64,000 bases of DNA from Geminicoccus roseus DSM 18922 (GTDB taxonomy: Bacteria; Pseudomonadota; Alphaproteobacteria; Geminicoccales; Geminicoccaceae): assembly GCF_000427665.1 (NCBI RefSeq), contig NZ_KE386572.1, forward strand, positions 124,001 to 188,000, in the 5' to 3' direction. The translations under genes were made by a program, and so were the position numbers. Under the pieces are notes generated by a model that was not told the origin of the DNA, made no database searches, and saw only the letters and a program-made list of their open reading frames with translations. This document shows, piece by piece, positions 10,586 to 16,450 of the stretch (its first letter is position 1; each line of letters begins with the position of its first letter).

Positions 10586-11626
10586 TCAGATCAGGAAGTG
10601 CCGCTGCATCCAGAGCATGCCTTCGGCATTGTTCTTGGTGACCACCGGCCCGTCGGTGATGACGTGCTTGGGGATCCCCTCGCCGCTCTTCTCGCCGGCG
10701 ACCACCGCCGCCACGCCCGCCATGACCGCACCGCCATGGATGCGCCCGGACGGGTTGCGCACGGTGGCGTGCATCCGGCCGTCGATGACCGCCTCGACCG
10801 CCGGCGGCATCGCGTCGACGCCACCCACCAGGATGTTGTCGCGGCCGCGCGCCTTCATGACGTTCTGGGCGGCCAGCGCCATGTCGTCGTTGTGGAAGAA
10901 CGCCGCGTCGATCTCGGGGTACTTGGTGAGCAGGCTGTCCCAGATCCGGGTGGCCTTGGTGACGTCCCAGTCGGCCGGCTGCTCGTCGAGCACCTCGATC
11001 TCGGGGAACTTCTCGACCACCGAGTGGAAGCCGCGCGCACGGCCCTGGGCGCCGGTGTGTCCCAGCGCGCCCTGGGTCATCACGATCTTGCCCTTGCCGC
11101 CCATGGCGTCCACCAGGGCCTGGGTGACCGCGGCGCCCATGAACTCGTTGTCCGGCGCCAGGAAGCTGTGCACGTCAATCTGGTCGAGCGGCGCGATCAG
11201 CGTGTCCATGTCGATCACCGGGATGCCGGCGTCGATCATCCGCTTGACCGGGTCGGTCAGCGTGCCGATGCCGAACGCCTGGATCGCGACGAAGTCCCAC
11301 TCCTGCGAAGCCATGTTGTCGATGGCGGCGCGCTGCTTGGGCGCCGACAGCTCGCCGTCGAACCAGGTGACCTCGACGTTGAACAGCTTGCCCCAGTACT
11401 CGGCGGCCTGCTTGCCCTGGGCGCACCAGGTCGCCTGGAGGCCGGCATTGGAGAACGCCGCCTTCAGCGGCTTTTCCGACCGGCCCATCTCCTGGGCGAG
11501 TGCCGCACCCATGAACGGGCTCATGCCCATGCCGCCCAGCAAGGCCGCGGCCGCGGCGCTGGAGCCGGTCACCTTGTGGATGAACGAACGCCGGGTCTCC
11601 GGCGTGACGCCGATCTTGTCGGTCAT
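10586..11626 (-). CDS. Sugar ABC transporter substrate-binding protein with Tat signal
   Basis: A 346-residue periplasmic binding protein of the RbsB type. Its N-terminus carries a twin-arginine signal, TRRSFIHK with the arginines at 12-13, followed by an Ala/Gly-rich hydrophobic stretch ending ALAQ. Tat export is unusual but known among CUT2 binding proteins. The mature part shows DNMASQEWDFVAIQAFG, GIPVIDMDTLIAP and HNDDMALAAQNVMKARG, typical of the hinge and ligand-lobe regions. The ATG at 11626 is preceded by AGGGAGGT at good distance, so the longer open frame is not used. First gene of the leftward operon. Confidence 0.92.
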   Translation of the reverse strand: MTDKIGVTPETRRSFIHKVTGSSAAAAALLGGMGMSPFMGAALAQEMGRSEKPLKAAFSNAGLQATWCAQGKQAAEYWGKLFNVEVTWFDGELSAPKQRAAIDNMASQEWDFVAIQAFGIGTLTDPVKRMIDAGIPVIDMDTLIAPLDQIDVHSFLAPDNEFMGAAVTQALVDAMGGKGKIVMTQGALGHTGAQGRARGFHSVVEKFPEIEVLDEQPADWDVTKATRIWDSLLTKYPEIDAAFFHNDDMALAAQNVMKARGRDNILVGGVDAMPPAVEAVIDGRMHATVRNPSGRIHGGAVMAGVAAVVAGEKSGEGIPKHVITDGPVVTKNNAEGMLWMQRHFLI

Positions 11627-11856
11627 CGGTAGGTACCTCCCTGAAGGCGGTCTCGCCGGACCGCGCGCGGCAGTCTTGAGGGACGCCGTCGGGCTTGGCA
11701 AGCGCTCCTGCGGCAGCCTGCCCGCAAAAATCATACTTTAGCAGCTCTGACTGAATCCTCATGGTCCGCCACGCCCGGGACCGCCCGAACCGCCTGCCGG
11801 CAGAAGCCGATCACGCACCATGGTCAGCCCGCTCAAGCACCGCGCCGGCTCCAGCC

Positions 11857-11915
11857 TCAGCCGACCGGCTTGCCCTCAAGGTCCAGCGCCAGGCGCGGCA
11901 GGAAGATCACCAGCC
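11857..11915 (-). pseudogene. Relic of a VanZ-like gene 3' end
   Basis: Bases 11879-11915 match bases 14152-14188 at 36 of 37 positions; the latter are codons of the VanZ-like gene on the minus strand. Read on the minus strand, the relic gives LVIFLPRLALDLEGKPVG and then a stop at 11857-11859, against LVIFLLRLALDLWG in the intact gene. No longer open frame continues upstream. It appears to be the last part of a second, decayed VanZ-like gene lying on the other side of the VWA gene, within the 505-base gap 11627-12131. That gap otherwise shows only an AT-rich part from about 11950. Confidence 0.5.
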
Positions 11916-12131
11916 TGCTCCGACCTGGAAACGAGGCGGAAAAGCAGCCTGCCATCACTACAGACATCACCGTCAGGATGCGTATTTACATGACAAGCCC
12001 GGAAAGTGGTTGACGAGACATTCCGGCTTTGCCAGACAGATCAACCATAATACGGCATAGTCAAAGCATGCCATTCCTAACGTTGCAGCCCTCGCATTGA
12101 AATGATGGGTACATGTTGGGATTATTTGCAC

Positions 12132-13922
12132 ATGGTACAATCATCTTCTTCATCCCTGCTTTCCGAGCTGAATGAAGCCAAGCCTGTCGACACGTCCTTG
12201 CTGGCACCGATCGATCGCCGCCTGCTGACTGTCGAAGAAACGGGCGAAGTCGTGGTGACCCTCGCCGGCGAGAATGGCCGCTACCAGAACTCGCTCGGCT
12301 ACTACACCGTGAACGAGGACGGCACGTTCGGCTCGGTCGGTCTTCTTTTCGCGGATACCAACTCGACCAAGTTCGATCCGGACAATCCCGAGGTCGATGA
12401 CGGCAAGGGCAGCCTGGTGGAAGGAATCAGCCAGGCCTCGTTCGGCAGCTTTGCCGCCGGCACCGAGATCGGCTTCTTCCTTCTCGCCAACGGCGCCGCG
12501 CTGAATGGCGACCTAGATCCCACCGCCTCGTTCCGCCTGGAGAAGGCAGACGGAAGTCCGGCCGGCATCGCTGACGGAACGGTGCCCCGCTTGGTGCAAG
12601 TCGGCGCGGATGGCCAGGAGGTCGTCCTTCAAGGCGATCTGATGTTCACGACCGATCCCACCGGCGAGGACTTCGCCAACGCCCTGAACAGCGGCGGCGC
12701 AGGGCAGGCCATCGCCGGCACCGACGAGGAGGGCGATCTGCTGATCGCCTTCGAAGACCTGCGCGCGGGCCACCGCTTCGCCGATCTGGACTTCAACGAC
12801 CTGGTGATCGAGGTGACGACGATCGCCAGCGGGGAGCCCTCGCCCACGCAGACGGCTACCGACCAGGCGACCATCCCCTCCACCGGCCAGACCCTGGCGG
12901 CCAGCCTCACCAGCGAAGTCGCCACCACCGACGACGTCATCGAGATCGAAGGCTTCATCAATCTGGGCGGGATCGCGCAGCCACCGTTCAACGTCGCCTT
13001 CGTGATCGACACCTCGGGCTCGATGCTCTCCGATTTCGGCGGCGACGTGGGCGACCTGAACGGAGATGGCCGGTTCAATACCCGGCTGGACGGCGCGATC
13101 GCCGCCTTCGAGGCGCTCAACCAGTCGATCATCGAGGACGGCCTGCAGGACGTCGTCGACATCAAGATCATCACGATCGACACGGTGTCGAGCACGTCGG
13201 AGGTCCTGGACCCGGGCGAGGACGTCGATGATGCCTTGGAAGCGCTGCAGCTGGGCGGGATCACCAACTACGCCGACGCGCTGGACCAGGCCGGCCTGTT
13301 CTTCGATGCACAGGCGGGGGGCACCAACATCGTTTATTTCGCCTCGGACGGGAATCCCAATACCGGCGGCTCCTACGAGGACGAGCTGACCCGCCTGACC
13401 GACGTGCACGAGGCGCGGATCGATGCGATCGGCATCGGCACCGCCGTCACCGAAACCGTGCTGGACGCCATCGATTCCGACGGCGAGGCCCAGATCACCA
13501 CCACCCCGGAGGAACTGGAGGCCGATCTCGGCGCCGCGCCGATCGCGCCCGCCGATCTGGCCAGCGTCGAGATCCTGCTGGATGGCGACGTGGTGCAGAC
13601 GATCGACGTGGCCGACCTGACGGTGACGCCGTTCGGGCTGCGCTTCGCGTTCTCCCTGACCGGCATCGACATCACCGACGGCGTGGCCAACCAGGTCTCG
13701 GTGCGGGTGGTCGGATCGGACGGCGACGCGACCACCGTGCAGCCGACCCTTTCCGTGGCCGATCCAGGTTCGGCACCCGTGGCGCCCCTGGTTCTCGACC
13801 TGGACGACGACGCTCCGTCGGCCGGCAGCTCTCTGTCGATCGAGGCGACCCTGGCGCCCACCGGCACCGAACTCGCCTCGCTCCTGCAGGAGCCGGCCGC
13901 GTCCCAGGTCATCGCCGCCTGA
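12132..13922 (+). CDS. DUF4114 and von Willebrand A domain protein, probably exported
   Basis: About 596 residues, strongly acidic and free of cysteine from this start. The N-terminal third ends in a DUF4114 domain with the typical LLIAFEDLRAGHRFADLDFNDLVIEV motif (around residues 205-230). A VWA domain follows, with the metal-site motif DTSGSMLS near residue 292 and a Gly/Asp-rich loop (GDVGDLNGDGR) that could bind calcium. The C-terminal part looks like beta-sandwich repeats. No Sec signal is seen; such proteins are often type I secretion substrates, which is inference. An ATG at 12102 is an alternative start, and neither has a good ribosome site. Confidence 0.8.
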   Translation: MVQSSSSSLLSELNEAKPVDTSLLAPIDRRLLTVEETGEVVVTLAGENGRYQNSLGYYTVNEDGTFGSVGLLFADTNSTKFDPDNPEVDDGKGSLVEGISQASFGSFAAGTEIGFFLLANGAALNGDLDPTASFRLEKADGSPAGIADGTVPRLVQVGADGQEVVLQGDLMFTTDPTGEDFANALNSGGAGQAIAGTDEEGDLLIAFEDLRAGHRFADLDFNDLVIEVTTIASGEPSPTQTATDQATIPSTGQTLAASLTSEVATTDDVIEIEGFINLGGIAQPPFNVAFVIDTSGSMLSDFGGDVGDLNGDGRFNTRLDGAIAAFEALNQSIIEDGLQDVVDIKIITIDTVSSTSEVLDPGEDVDDALEALQLGGITNYADALDQAGLFFDAQAGGTNIVYFASDGNPNTGGSYEDELTRLTDVHEARIDAIGIGTAVTETVLDAIDSDGEAQITTTPEELEADLGAAPIAPADLASVEILLDGDVVQTIDVADLTVTPFGLRFAFSLTGIDITDGVANQVSVRVVGSDGDATTVQPTLSVADPGSAPVAPLVLDLDDDAPSAGSSLSIEATLAPTGTELASLLQEPAASQVIAA

Positions 13923-13943
13923 CAGGCGTCGCCAGGGACCAGC

Positions 13944-13982
13944 GCGGGGATGTCCCGGCAGTCGTTGCCGGGCCATCCCCGC
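13944..13982 (+). terminator. Strong hairpin terminator after the VWA gene
   Basis: GCGGGGATG at 13944-13952 pairs with CATCCCCGC at 13974-13982, and CCCGGCA pairs with TGCCGGG inside, leaving a five-base loop and one mismatch. It begins 22 bases after the VWA stop and is followed by CTTGCTGG. This is the most stable hairpin in this part of the window and may serve both convergent genes. Confidence 0.65.
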
Positions 13983-14096
13983 CTTGCTGGATGGTGCACG
14001 GCATCCGCGGCAAGTGACTGGGGTGCCGGCTCAGCGCGCAGGCGGTCCGGCGGCAGGGTTGCAGGCCGATACGCCCAGCGTCACGCCGGACGGATG

Positions 14097-15170
14097 TCAG
14101 CGGGAGCGTGCGTCCGAGAGGGTGGAGCGCGCCGAGGCGCTGGCGCCCCACAGGTCCAGCGCCAGGCGCAGCAGGAAGATCACCAGCCAGCCGAGCAGCG
14201 CGCCGGTGACGTTGGTGATGATGTCGTCGACCGACGGCACCCGGCCGGGCACGGTGAGCTGGGTGAACTCGATGGTGCCGCTGACCGCAAGCCCGGTCGC
14301 CAGCACCGAGAACACCGTGGCGCCCGGCCAGATCGCCGCGACCATGCCGAGCGGCACGAAGCCTAAGACGTTCTGCCAGGCATCGGCGGTGCCCAGGTCC
14401 TCCAGCATGGTCAGGCGCGGCTCGCGGTGCAGGAACCACATCCGCGGCGGGCGATCCAGGACGCCCGGCGCCAGCAGGTCGACCTGGCGGCTGCCGGCCT
14501 GCACCTCAGCCTTCAGGATCTCGCCCAGGAAATAGCGGCGGATGTTCAGGTCGCTGCCCACCACCGCCTGGTAGGTGCCGTTCCAGCGCCGGCGCGGGTC
14601 GTAGGGATAGGTGCGGTTGATCACCTGCCGGCCGTCGATCGCCACGGTGAGCCTTGGCCCCAACAGCTCCAGGTCGATCGTCACCGGCACCCCGTCCGTG
14701 AACACGTTCGGGACCCGGATCGGCGGCGCCCCCTCATGGTTGGTGCCCTTGCCGCGCAGATGCACCAGCAGGGCCGGCCCCTCCCGGTCGAGCGAGAGCA
14801 GCCGGCCGTTCGCCCCGCCGCTCAGGCCGAACATCCGGCCGATGAAACGCGGGTGCGGCGGGGCCGGCACCACCTCCAGGTGGACGCGCAGGGGCAGGCC
14901 CTGCACCACGTCGTCCAGCCAGCCGGGCGGCTGGTAGCTGCGCAGCAGGCCTGGCTTAGCGAACAGGGCATGGCCGTCGGCGGCGATCTCGACCTGGTTG
15001 AGCTGCTGCTTGGGCAGCCGCCAGTGCAGCGGCCAGAACACCGCCACGAAATAGCTGGCCAGCACCACCAGCAGGGCGGTGACGCGCAGGCCGGGCGTGA
15101 GGAGCGCGCTGATCTCCTCGTGGACCAGGAAGCGCTCGCGCAACCGGCCCGGCCGGTGCGCCTCGATCAT
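14097..15170 (-). CDS. VanZ-like membrane protein with large extracytoplasmic domain
   Basis: A 357-residue protein. One N-terminal membrane segment (VTALLVVLASYFVAVFWPL, about residues 30-48) is followed by a beta-rich periplasmic domain of about 170 residues that resembles a concanavalin-like/LamG fold (NVFTDGVPVTIDLELLGPRLTVAIDGRQV). The C-terminal membrane part is VanZ-like: AWQNVLGFVPLGMVAAI, SGTIEFTQLTVPGRVPSVDDIITNVTGALLGW. The E-F-x-Q and D-D-x-x-x-N signatures are characteristic. VanZ was named for low-level teicoplanin resistance; the role here is unknown. It is convergent with the VWA gene. Confidence 0.8.
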   Translation of the reverse strand: MIEAHRPGRLRERFLVHEEISALLTPGLRVTALLVVLASYFVAVFWPLHWRLPKQQLNQVEIAADGHALFAKPGLLRSYQPPGWLDDVVQGLPLRVHLEVVPAPPHPRFIGRMFGLSGGANGRLLSLDREGPALLVHLRGKGTNHEGAPPIRVPNVFTDGVPVTIDLELLGPRLTVAIDGRQVINRTYPYDPRRRWNGTYQAVVGSDLNIRRYFLGEILKAEVQAGSRQVDLLAPGVLDRPPRMWFLHREPRLTMLEDLGTADAWQNVLGFVPLGMVAAIWPGATVFSVLATGLAVSGTIEFTQLTVPGRVPSVDDIITNVTGALLGWLVIFLLRLALDLWGASASARSTLSDARSR

Positions 15171-15235: not shown

Positions 15236-16450
15236 TCAGGACAGGGCCTTGGCGAGCTGCTTGTCGAGCGCGTCCAAGAAGCCCGTGGTAGTGAGCCAGG
15301 GCTGCTCCGGCCCGATCAGCACCGCCAGGTCCTTGGTCATCTGGCCGCCCTCGACCGTGTCGACGCAGACCTTTTCCAGGGTCGCGGCGAACTGCTCCAC
15401 GTCCGGCGTGCCGTCGATCTTGCCGCGATAGGTCAAGCCGCGGGTCCAGGCGAAGATCGAGGCGATCGGGTTGGTGGAGGTCTGCTTGCCCTTCTGGTGC
15501 TCGCGGTAGTGGCGGGTCACCGTGCCGTGCGCCGCCTCGGCCTCAATGGTGCCGCCGTCCGGGGTCATCAGCACCGAGGTCATCAGGCCCAGCGAGCCGA
15601 AGCCCTGCGCCACCGTGTCGGACTGCACGTCGCCGTCATAGTTCTTGCAGGCCCAGACATAGCCGCCCGACCACTTCATCGCGCAGGCGACCATGTCGTC
15701 GATCAGCCGGTGCTCGTAGGTCACCCCGGCTTCCTTGAACTTGCCGGCGAACTCCGCGTCGTACACCTCCTGGAACAGGTCCTTGAAGCGCCCGTCATAG
15801 GCCTTCAGGATCGTGTTCTTGGTCGACAGGTAGAGCGGCCAGCCGCGCTGCAGCGCGTAGTTCATCGACGCGCGGGCGAACTCGCGCACCGATTCGTCCA
15901 GGTTGTACATGGCCATCGCCACGCCGGCCGCCTGGAAGTCGTAGACCTCGTGGTGGATCGGCGCGGAGCCGTCCTCGGGCTGGAAGGTGATGGTCAGCTT
16001 GCCCTTGCCCGGCACCTTGAAGTCGGTGGCGCGGTACTGGTCGCCGAAGGCATGGCGGCCGATCACGATCGGCTGGGTCCAGCCCGGCACCAGGCGCGGC
16101 ACGTTCTTGCAGATGATCGGCTCGCGGAAGATGGTCCCGCCCAGGATGTTGCGGATCGTGCCGTTCGGCGACTTCCACATCTTCTTGAGCTTGAACTCCT
16201 CGACGCGCTGCTCGTCGGGGGTGATCGTGGCGCACTTCACGCCGACATTGTACTTCTTGATCGCCTCGGCGGCGTCGACCGTCACCTGGTCGGAGGTCGC
16301 GTCGCGATGCTCGACGCCCAGGTCGTAATACTTCAGGTCGATGTCCAGATAGGGCAGGATCAGCTTGTCCTTGATCATCTGCCAGATGATCCGGGTCATC
16401 TCGTCGCCGTCGAGCTCGACGATCGGGTTCTTGACCTTGATCTTCGCCAT
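15236..16450 (-). CDS. icd: NADP-dependent isocitrate dehydrogenase
   Basis: 404 residues, of the eukaryote-like (type II homodimeric) isocitrate dehydrogenase common in alphaproteobacteria. It begins [21 protein letters not shown], has the substrate loop [22 protein letters not shown] and ends the active site with [16 protein letters not shown]. It converts isocitrate to 2-oxoglutarate in the TCA cycle, making NADPH. A perfect AGAAGGAG ribosome site precedes the ATG. Confidence 0.97.

Follow-up and report, generated by a model that had tools for sequence, protein, structure and literature searches.

A truncated VanZ-like gene end beyond a VWA/DUF4114 gene in Geminicoccus roseus: a possible trace of gene gain

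INTRODUCTION

How does the 3′ end of one gene come to stand on both sides of another? The question is raised by a locus of Geminicoccus roseus DSM 18922, located in the 64-kb stretch of DNA analyzed here (hereafter the window), where a VWA/DUF4114 gene lies between an intact VanZ-like gene and a short, truncated copy of that gene's 3′ end. The initial annotation read this arrangement as the residue of an insertion with target duplication, or of a tandem duplication followed by decay, and took it as a hint that the VWA gene had been acquired. We find the acquisition supported and both proposed mechanisms wanting. The explanation to which we give somewhat better than an even chance is that illegitimate recombination brought the gene into the G. 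roseus lineage and that the far junction received a short patch derived from VanZ. The locus would then be an ordinary gene gain, not a new system; its value is as a small but readable trace of such a gain in a little-studied alphaproteobacterium, for which a sister species offers the empty site.

THE LOCUS AND ITS DIRECT REPEAT

The relevant features, in window coordinates, are as follows.

10586..11734, minus strand: left-flank gene for a sugar-type ABC substrate-binding protein; common to G. flavidas (94%)
11754..14136, no strand: 2,383-base stretch standing against 53 bases (C170:12568-12620) in G. flavidas, bounded by the BLAST ends of the flanks
11857..11919, minus strand: truncated duplicate of the 3′ coding end of the VanZ-like gene (SRLVIFLPRLALDLEGKPVG-stop), with its near-perfect block at 11879-11915
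12102..13922, plus strand: VWA/DUF4114 gene, 606 aa from 12102; Pfam DUF4114 and VWA
13939..13990, plus strand: strong hairpin and possible terminator just 3′ of the VWA stop; arms 13944-13960/13966-13982
14097..15170, minus strand: VanZ-like gene in intact form, encoding 357 aa with Pfam VanZ at residues 262-334; 65% identical relative in G. flavidas
14145..14191, minus strand: matching segment inside the intact VanZ-like gene, from repeat search and diagonal
15236..16450, minus strand: isocitrate dehydrogenase gene, right flank; common to G. flavidas (92.5%)

The near-identical core of the repeat spans 11879-11915 and 14152-14188, agrees at 36 of 37 bases, and recurs in the same orientation at an offset of 2,273, exactly as the initial annotation had described it; a repeat search of the window delimited a pair at 11872-11918 and 14145-14191 (47 nt, 89%). 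Its coding content requires some correction. The peptide VIFLPRLALDL, formerly read as followed directly by a stop, is indeed present in the fragment at 11.86 kb, but six further residues stand beyond the shared peptide (VIFLPRLALDL-EGKPVG-stop, the stop being 11857-11859), and the intact gene ends instead in VIFLLRLALDL-WGASASARSTLSDARSR-stop, its whole 3′ end reading GWLVIFLLRLALDLWGASASARSTLSDARSR-stop. The core differs at a single residue, where the fragment has P and both the intact gene and its G. flavidas counterpart have L. Nor is the VanZ-like gene itself situated at 11.9 kb, as had been supposed: the intact gene is the one at 14097-15170, and the copy at 11.86 kb is a fragment, probably devoid of a function of its own. 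The intact product scores 64.8 bits against Pfam VanZ (PF04892; gathering cut-off 30.1), and 27.5 against the NCBIfam glycopeptide-resistance VanZ-F model, far under its cut-off of 375.

Both edges of the block are sharp: along the ungapped diagonal of the repeat, the 20-base bins within it have 19/20 and 18/20 matches, and those adjoining it 7/20 and 6/20. A longer duplication that subsequently decayed is rejected because the 36/37 block directly borders no similarity, with a breakpoint on each side. Chance was ruled out by order-5 Markov simulations of the window (n = 20), which produced no pair as good, and by a whole-genome search; within the window, there is no second pair of such quality at most 10 kb apart. 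A genome-wide repeat, a possibility that the initial annotation had itself raised, was not seen: at E ≤ 0.001, the segment was found in the 5,698,370-base genome at these two places only (40 of 168 first-look candidates scored).

THE EMPTY SITE IN G. FLAVIDAS

Our family set comprises 31 genomes, in which the genus is represented by two, G. roseus and G. flavidas. The latter is the only other genome of the 31 with a VanZ-like gene, and across the class such a match at E 1e-5 occurs in 3 of 385 genomes, G. roseus itself included. Contig C170 of G. flavidas CPCC 101082 (NZ_WUJP01000685.1) carries the flanking genes of the site, and in this one relative the substrate-binding and VanZ-like genes are nearly adjacent, with no VWA gene between them. 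The longest reading frames are 11396-12541(−) for the former and 12588-13673(−) for the latter, leaving a gap of 46 bases with starts assigned mechanically; the protein matches to the two G. roseus products lie 139 bases apart. At the DNA level, similarity ends on the left at 11753 (88%; C170:12567) and resumes on the right at 14137 (80%; C170:12621). The repeat patch, a copy of a resident gene's end on the far side of the added DNA, lies within 105-165 bases of the point at which the left-hand G. flavidas match ends. A comparison with a relative free of the VWA gene, as the initial annotation had advised, thus finds an intact VanZ-like gene and nearly adjacent flanks. At E 0.001, the VWA gene has a single match in G. 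flavidas; it lies on a different contig and aligns with query residues 12-241, which are the DUF4114 part.

The acquisition of the VWA gene is supported because these flanks are nearly adjacent without it, at 53 bases compared to 2,383; the lower GC3 of the gene and its sporadic relatives, described below, lend further support. From two genomes, the direction would be gain rather than loss, a loss in G. flavidas being possible. A wider survey of substrate-binding loci (the best 80 of 334 relatives, with flanks of at most 8 kb and some shorter) returned a VWA match in none of the 80, and VanZ together with isocitrate dehydrogenase beside the substrate-binding gene in one, that of G. flavidas. 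The other 79 lack VanZ too, and therefore say little on polarity. A mosaic VanZ allele was also entertained and set aside: identity to G. flavidas is low along the whole gene (0.68-0.84 per 150-base bin) and shows no clear edge.

THE VWA/DUF4114 GENE AND ITS RELATIVES

The VWA gene, for which an ATG at 12132 provides an alternative start, encodes a protein that matches Pfam DUF4114 (PF13448) and VWA with scores above all gathering cut-offs (39.5/27, 30.4/27, and 26.1/23.8 bits). Its domains and its acidic, cysteine-free composition suggest that it is probably an exported, calcium-dependent, adhesin-like protein. In the literature, DUF4114 and von Willebrand appear together in work on PilY1 proteins and type IV pili. 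The GC3 of the gene, counted from the codon after the ATG at 12132, is 0.862, compared to 0.937-0.963 in six nearby genes, and the GC content upstream falls to 0.475 at 12000-12199. Downstream, the segment 13915-14000 folds at −52.7 kcal/mol (z −4.09); the hairpin that it contains has no T run and is therefore not in the terminator pattern scan. That scan, on which we do not rely, returned five terminator-like sites (0.8 expected) and two promoter-like sites (0.2 expected), one of the latter at 12097-12125(+).

Four further reading frames in the insert gave no match in a Pfam scan, and neither an integrase nor a transposase was found among the five frames scanned (the VWA gene and these four). 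No RNA families or tRNA were found at the site. On a possible phage origin, which we do not favor, the search gave one marginal match (E 0.0082), between a PHROG of unknown function and residues 291-313 of the VWA protein.

Relatives of the VWA protein are sporadic in distribution. Only one in the family set of 31 is near full length; it shows 36% identity across residues 19-559 and resides in different surroundings, downstream of a LuxR-family regulator (Pfam GerE) and adjoining a frame that by eye is ABC-ATPase-like. Among the 385 class genomes (own included, at most three candidates scored in each), the others found at E 1e-30 cover parts of the protein only. No donor with a VWA gene beside a VanZ end was found in the 31 family genomes, viral contigs, or plasmids, and searches of the latter two confirmed no relative of the VWA protein. 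The ends of the insert were found nowhere else in the G. roseus genome besides the repeat itself (22 of 153 and 40 of 63 candidates scored). A weak match to the left stretch, in genome G022 (85% over 40 bases, E 1.9e-4), falls inside a 494-aa frame that by eye is of a different kind, and we take it to be a chance similarity.

WHICH COPY IS NATIVE

Two geometries fit the arrangement. Either the fragment is the old resident end, with a donor's end now on the intact gene, or the intact gene is native and the patch was copied. In principle, the sequence past the block distinguishes them. Tails were counted from the last three bases of the block, in a phase chosen by the analyst and in GC-rich sequence, and scored against G. 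flavidas relative to 500 shuffles. At 20 bases, the tail of the intact gene scored 12.0 (0 of 500 shuffles as good) and that of the fragment 7.5 (10 of 500). The signal of the intact tail weakens at 30, 45, and 60 bases, where 11, 11, and 29 shuffles did as well; the corresponding counts for the fragment are 25, 85, and 33. Compared to each other at 20, 30, 45, and 60 bases, the two tails were equaled by 64, 115, 110, and 59 of 500 shuffles. These weak data hint that the intact gene's tail is the closer to G. flavidas, and they lean toward a native intact gene with a copied patch, the geometry favored here. The intact copy also looks ancestral within the core because its L is common to G. flavidas while the fragment has P.

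TRUNCATED GENE ENDS ELSEWHERE IN THE GENOME

How unusual is such a repeat in this genome? As a control, 400 kb of G. roseus (20 stretches in four blocks) was searched for same-strand repeats. Pairs of 36/37 or better within 10 kb numbered four: a tandem repeat (offset 21), two in long frames that by eye are apparently paralogous, and the 3′ end of an amine-oxidase gene. A BLAST setting (at least 33 bases and 88% identity, 100 bases to 15 kb apart, direct repeats only) gave one pair in the 64-kb window and 11 in the control. Six of these 11 were examined and include at least two truncated gene-end copies; the other four overlap reading frames. The amine-oxidase (Pfam Amino_oxidase) copy comprises 265 bases at 92.8%, its fragment at C5:1,004,546-1,004,810 and the full gene at C5:1,012,844-1,014,301(−). 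The second, of the 3′ part of a gene named by eye as ABC-ATPase-like, extends over 559 columns at 81.6%, including 145 bases at 96.6%, its fragment at about C5:4,001,265-4,001,783 and the matching part of the gene at C5:4,011,565-4,012,121. Both are on the same strand as their full genes and downstream of them, so that with the VanZ-like end three truncated 3′ ends share one geometry, at 2.3, 8.3, and 10.3 kb from the full gene. The amine oxidase has no clear orthologue in G. flavidas (44% over residues 20-116, 29% over 238-477).

The amine-oxidase pair brackets a DUF4114 match (C5:1,010,111-1,010,272), together with Pfam matches to multicopper oxidase (23.3, cut-off 20.4), SCO1/SenC, and subtilase. 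Of the four DUF4114 matches in a genome search, two therefore lie between a full gene and its truncated copy; around the other two, no gene-end copies were found (0 pairs in each of two 30-kb stretches). This recurrence has two opposite implications. A process that acts repeatedly is hinted at, but the tie between patch and VWA gene is loosened: given at least two other truncated copies in 400 kb, one in 64 kb may be background, unrelated to the VWA gene. It is conceivable, though in our estimation distinctly unlikely, that G. roseus repeatedly gains DNA without an integrase, each time leaving a copy of a neighbor's 3′ end beyond the new DNA, and that DUF4114 genes are favored passengers. Should the recurrence prove genuine, it would make gene entry without mobile-element machinery open to observation, and it is the one lead here worth following.

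MECHANISM AND COMPETING EXPLANATIONS

Every explanation has to accommodate two observations: the site is empty in G. flavidas, and the duplicate has sharp edges. Under the favored one, illegitimate recombination, possibly assisted by homology, would have placed some 2.4 kb with one laterally gained VWA/DUF4114 gene in the short space that separates the ABC substrate-binding gene from the VanZ-like one, and during entry a copy of some 40 bases from the 3′ end of the latter would have been left at the far junction. The recombination step may have been of this kind; patch and gene may have arrived together, the link between them being circumstantial. The main rival, possible if doubtful, is a Campbell-type single crossover or homology-facilitated illegitimate integration, in which the incoming DNA brought the VWA gene together with part of a related VanZ gene and recombined within the 3′ end of the resident VanZ; the fragment would then be the former resident end, and the donor's end would be on the intact gene. 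Such a crossover yields exactly one gene-end copy per side of the insert, and the two further 3′-end copies in the genome (265 and ~560 bases, downstream of full genes) have the same geometry. In E. coli, lacZ-end duplications of 109-950 bp are attributed to single crossovers, homology-facilitated events being rare (PMC3240628); in Vibrio, a similar homology-facilitated route is proposed for added modules displacing resident genes or gene parts (PMC5361080). However, the crossover predicts a fragment tail like that of G. flavidas, and the weak tail data lean the opposite way; 40 bases is short for homologous recombination, and the VanZ-like gene has no clear mosaic edge. Since this rival partly overlaps the favored explanation, the likelihoods given to the two are not exclusive.

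An unlikely reading, by contrast, severs patch and gene altogether: the patch would come from a small duplication of its own, and the VWA gene would be either a gain of another time or an ancestral gene lost in G. flavidas. Two genomes of the genus do not fix the polarity, and truncated gene ends do occur elsewhere in G. roseus, but the patch is close to the start of the insert, and the low GC3 and sporadic relatives disfavor an ancestral gene. Very improbable is that a small element integrated site-specifically, using an att site located at the 3′ end of VanZ. The 36/37 block present at both ends of the insert is of the size of an attachment core, is nearly identical, has unrelated arms on both sides, and belongs to a gene 3′ end; yet no integrase was among the five frames scanned, the insert ends were not found elsewhere (among the candidates scored), and no match of the VWA protein to viral contigs or plasmids was confirmed. 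Insertion of a transposon with target-site duplication, the sense in which the initial annotation's first proposal would be taken, is close to refuted. A direct repeat does flank the added gene, but usual transposon target-site duplications are 2-15 bases, and ~40 bases is far longer; no transposase was found in the scanned frames, and no inverted repeat marks the insert ends (longest 25 of 41 pairs), the nearest being 11785-11804/14031-14050 (80% over 20 bases), 31 and 86 bases inside them.

COMPARISON WITH KNOWN SYSTEMS

The VWA protein resembles other bacterial VWA/DUF4114 proteins in its Pfam domains, both above cut-offs, and differs in that the nearest in the 31 family genomes is only 36% identical. 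Short-patch double illegitimate recombination copies a patch of tens of bases from elsewhere and leaves two illegitimate junctions. The short copied patch is alike here, but stands beside a 2-kb insertion, to which it may be linked. The templated-insertion literature that we found concerns plants and filamentous pathogens. With homology-facilitated and single-crossover integration, as described in PMC3240628 and PMC5361080, the locus shares a resident gene-end copy beyond the added DNA and the dispensability of mobile-element machinery; in distinction to these, the copy is here only ~40 bases long with a boundary at either edge, and the ancestral tail may survive on the intact gene.

The VanZ-like gene and the surroundings of the VWA gene

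The VanZ-like protein (window 14097-15170) is only 65% identical to its counterpart in G. flavidas, whereas the products of the neighbouring substrate-binding protein and isocitrate dehydrogenase genes are 94% and 92.5% identical, respectively. No match to it was found in the other 29 Geminicoccaceae genomes searched. Shortly 3′ of the stop codon of the adjacent VWA/DUF4114 gene lies a very stable hairpin (window 13939-13990), which lacks a T run and is a possible terminator. A relative of the VWA/DUF4114 gene, 36% identical, resides in another Geminicoccaceae genome (locus L023), with a LuxR-family regulator upstream and an ABC-ATPase-like frame alongside; among the ORFs listed for the 4.6 kb locus, no VanZ frame was noticed.

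Other repeats in the G. roseus genome

Duplicated gene ends also occur in two 20 kb control stretches, both on contig C5: L133 (G000:C5:1000001-1020000) and L148 (G000:C5:4000001-4020000).

L133 4546-4810 and 12843-13107, same strand: amine-oxidase 3′-end repeat pair
L148 about 1265-1783 and 11565-12121, same strand: ABC-ATPase-like 3′-part repeat pair

The amine-oxidase copy (265 bases, 92.8%) lies downstream of the complete gene at a distance of 8.3 kb, and the interval between them contains matches to multicopper-oxidase, SCO1/SenC, subtilase, and DUF4114. The broken ABC-ATPase-like 3′ part, about 10.3 kb downstream of its full gene, matches it at 81.6% over 559 columns, including 145 bases at 96.6%. 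A 37/37 repeat at about 1,089,724 and 1,095,758 of C5 falls within two neighbouring, very long reading frames which, judged by eye, are probably modular synthase paralogues.
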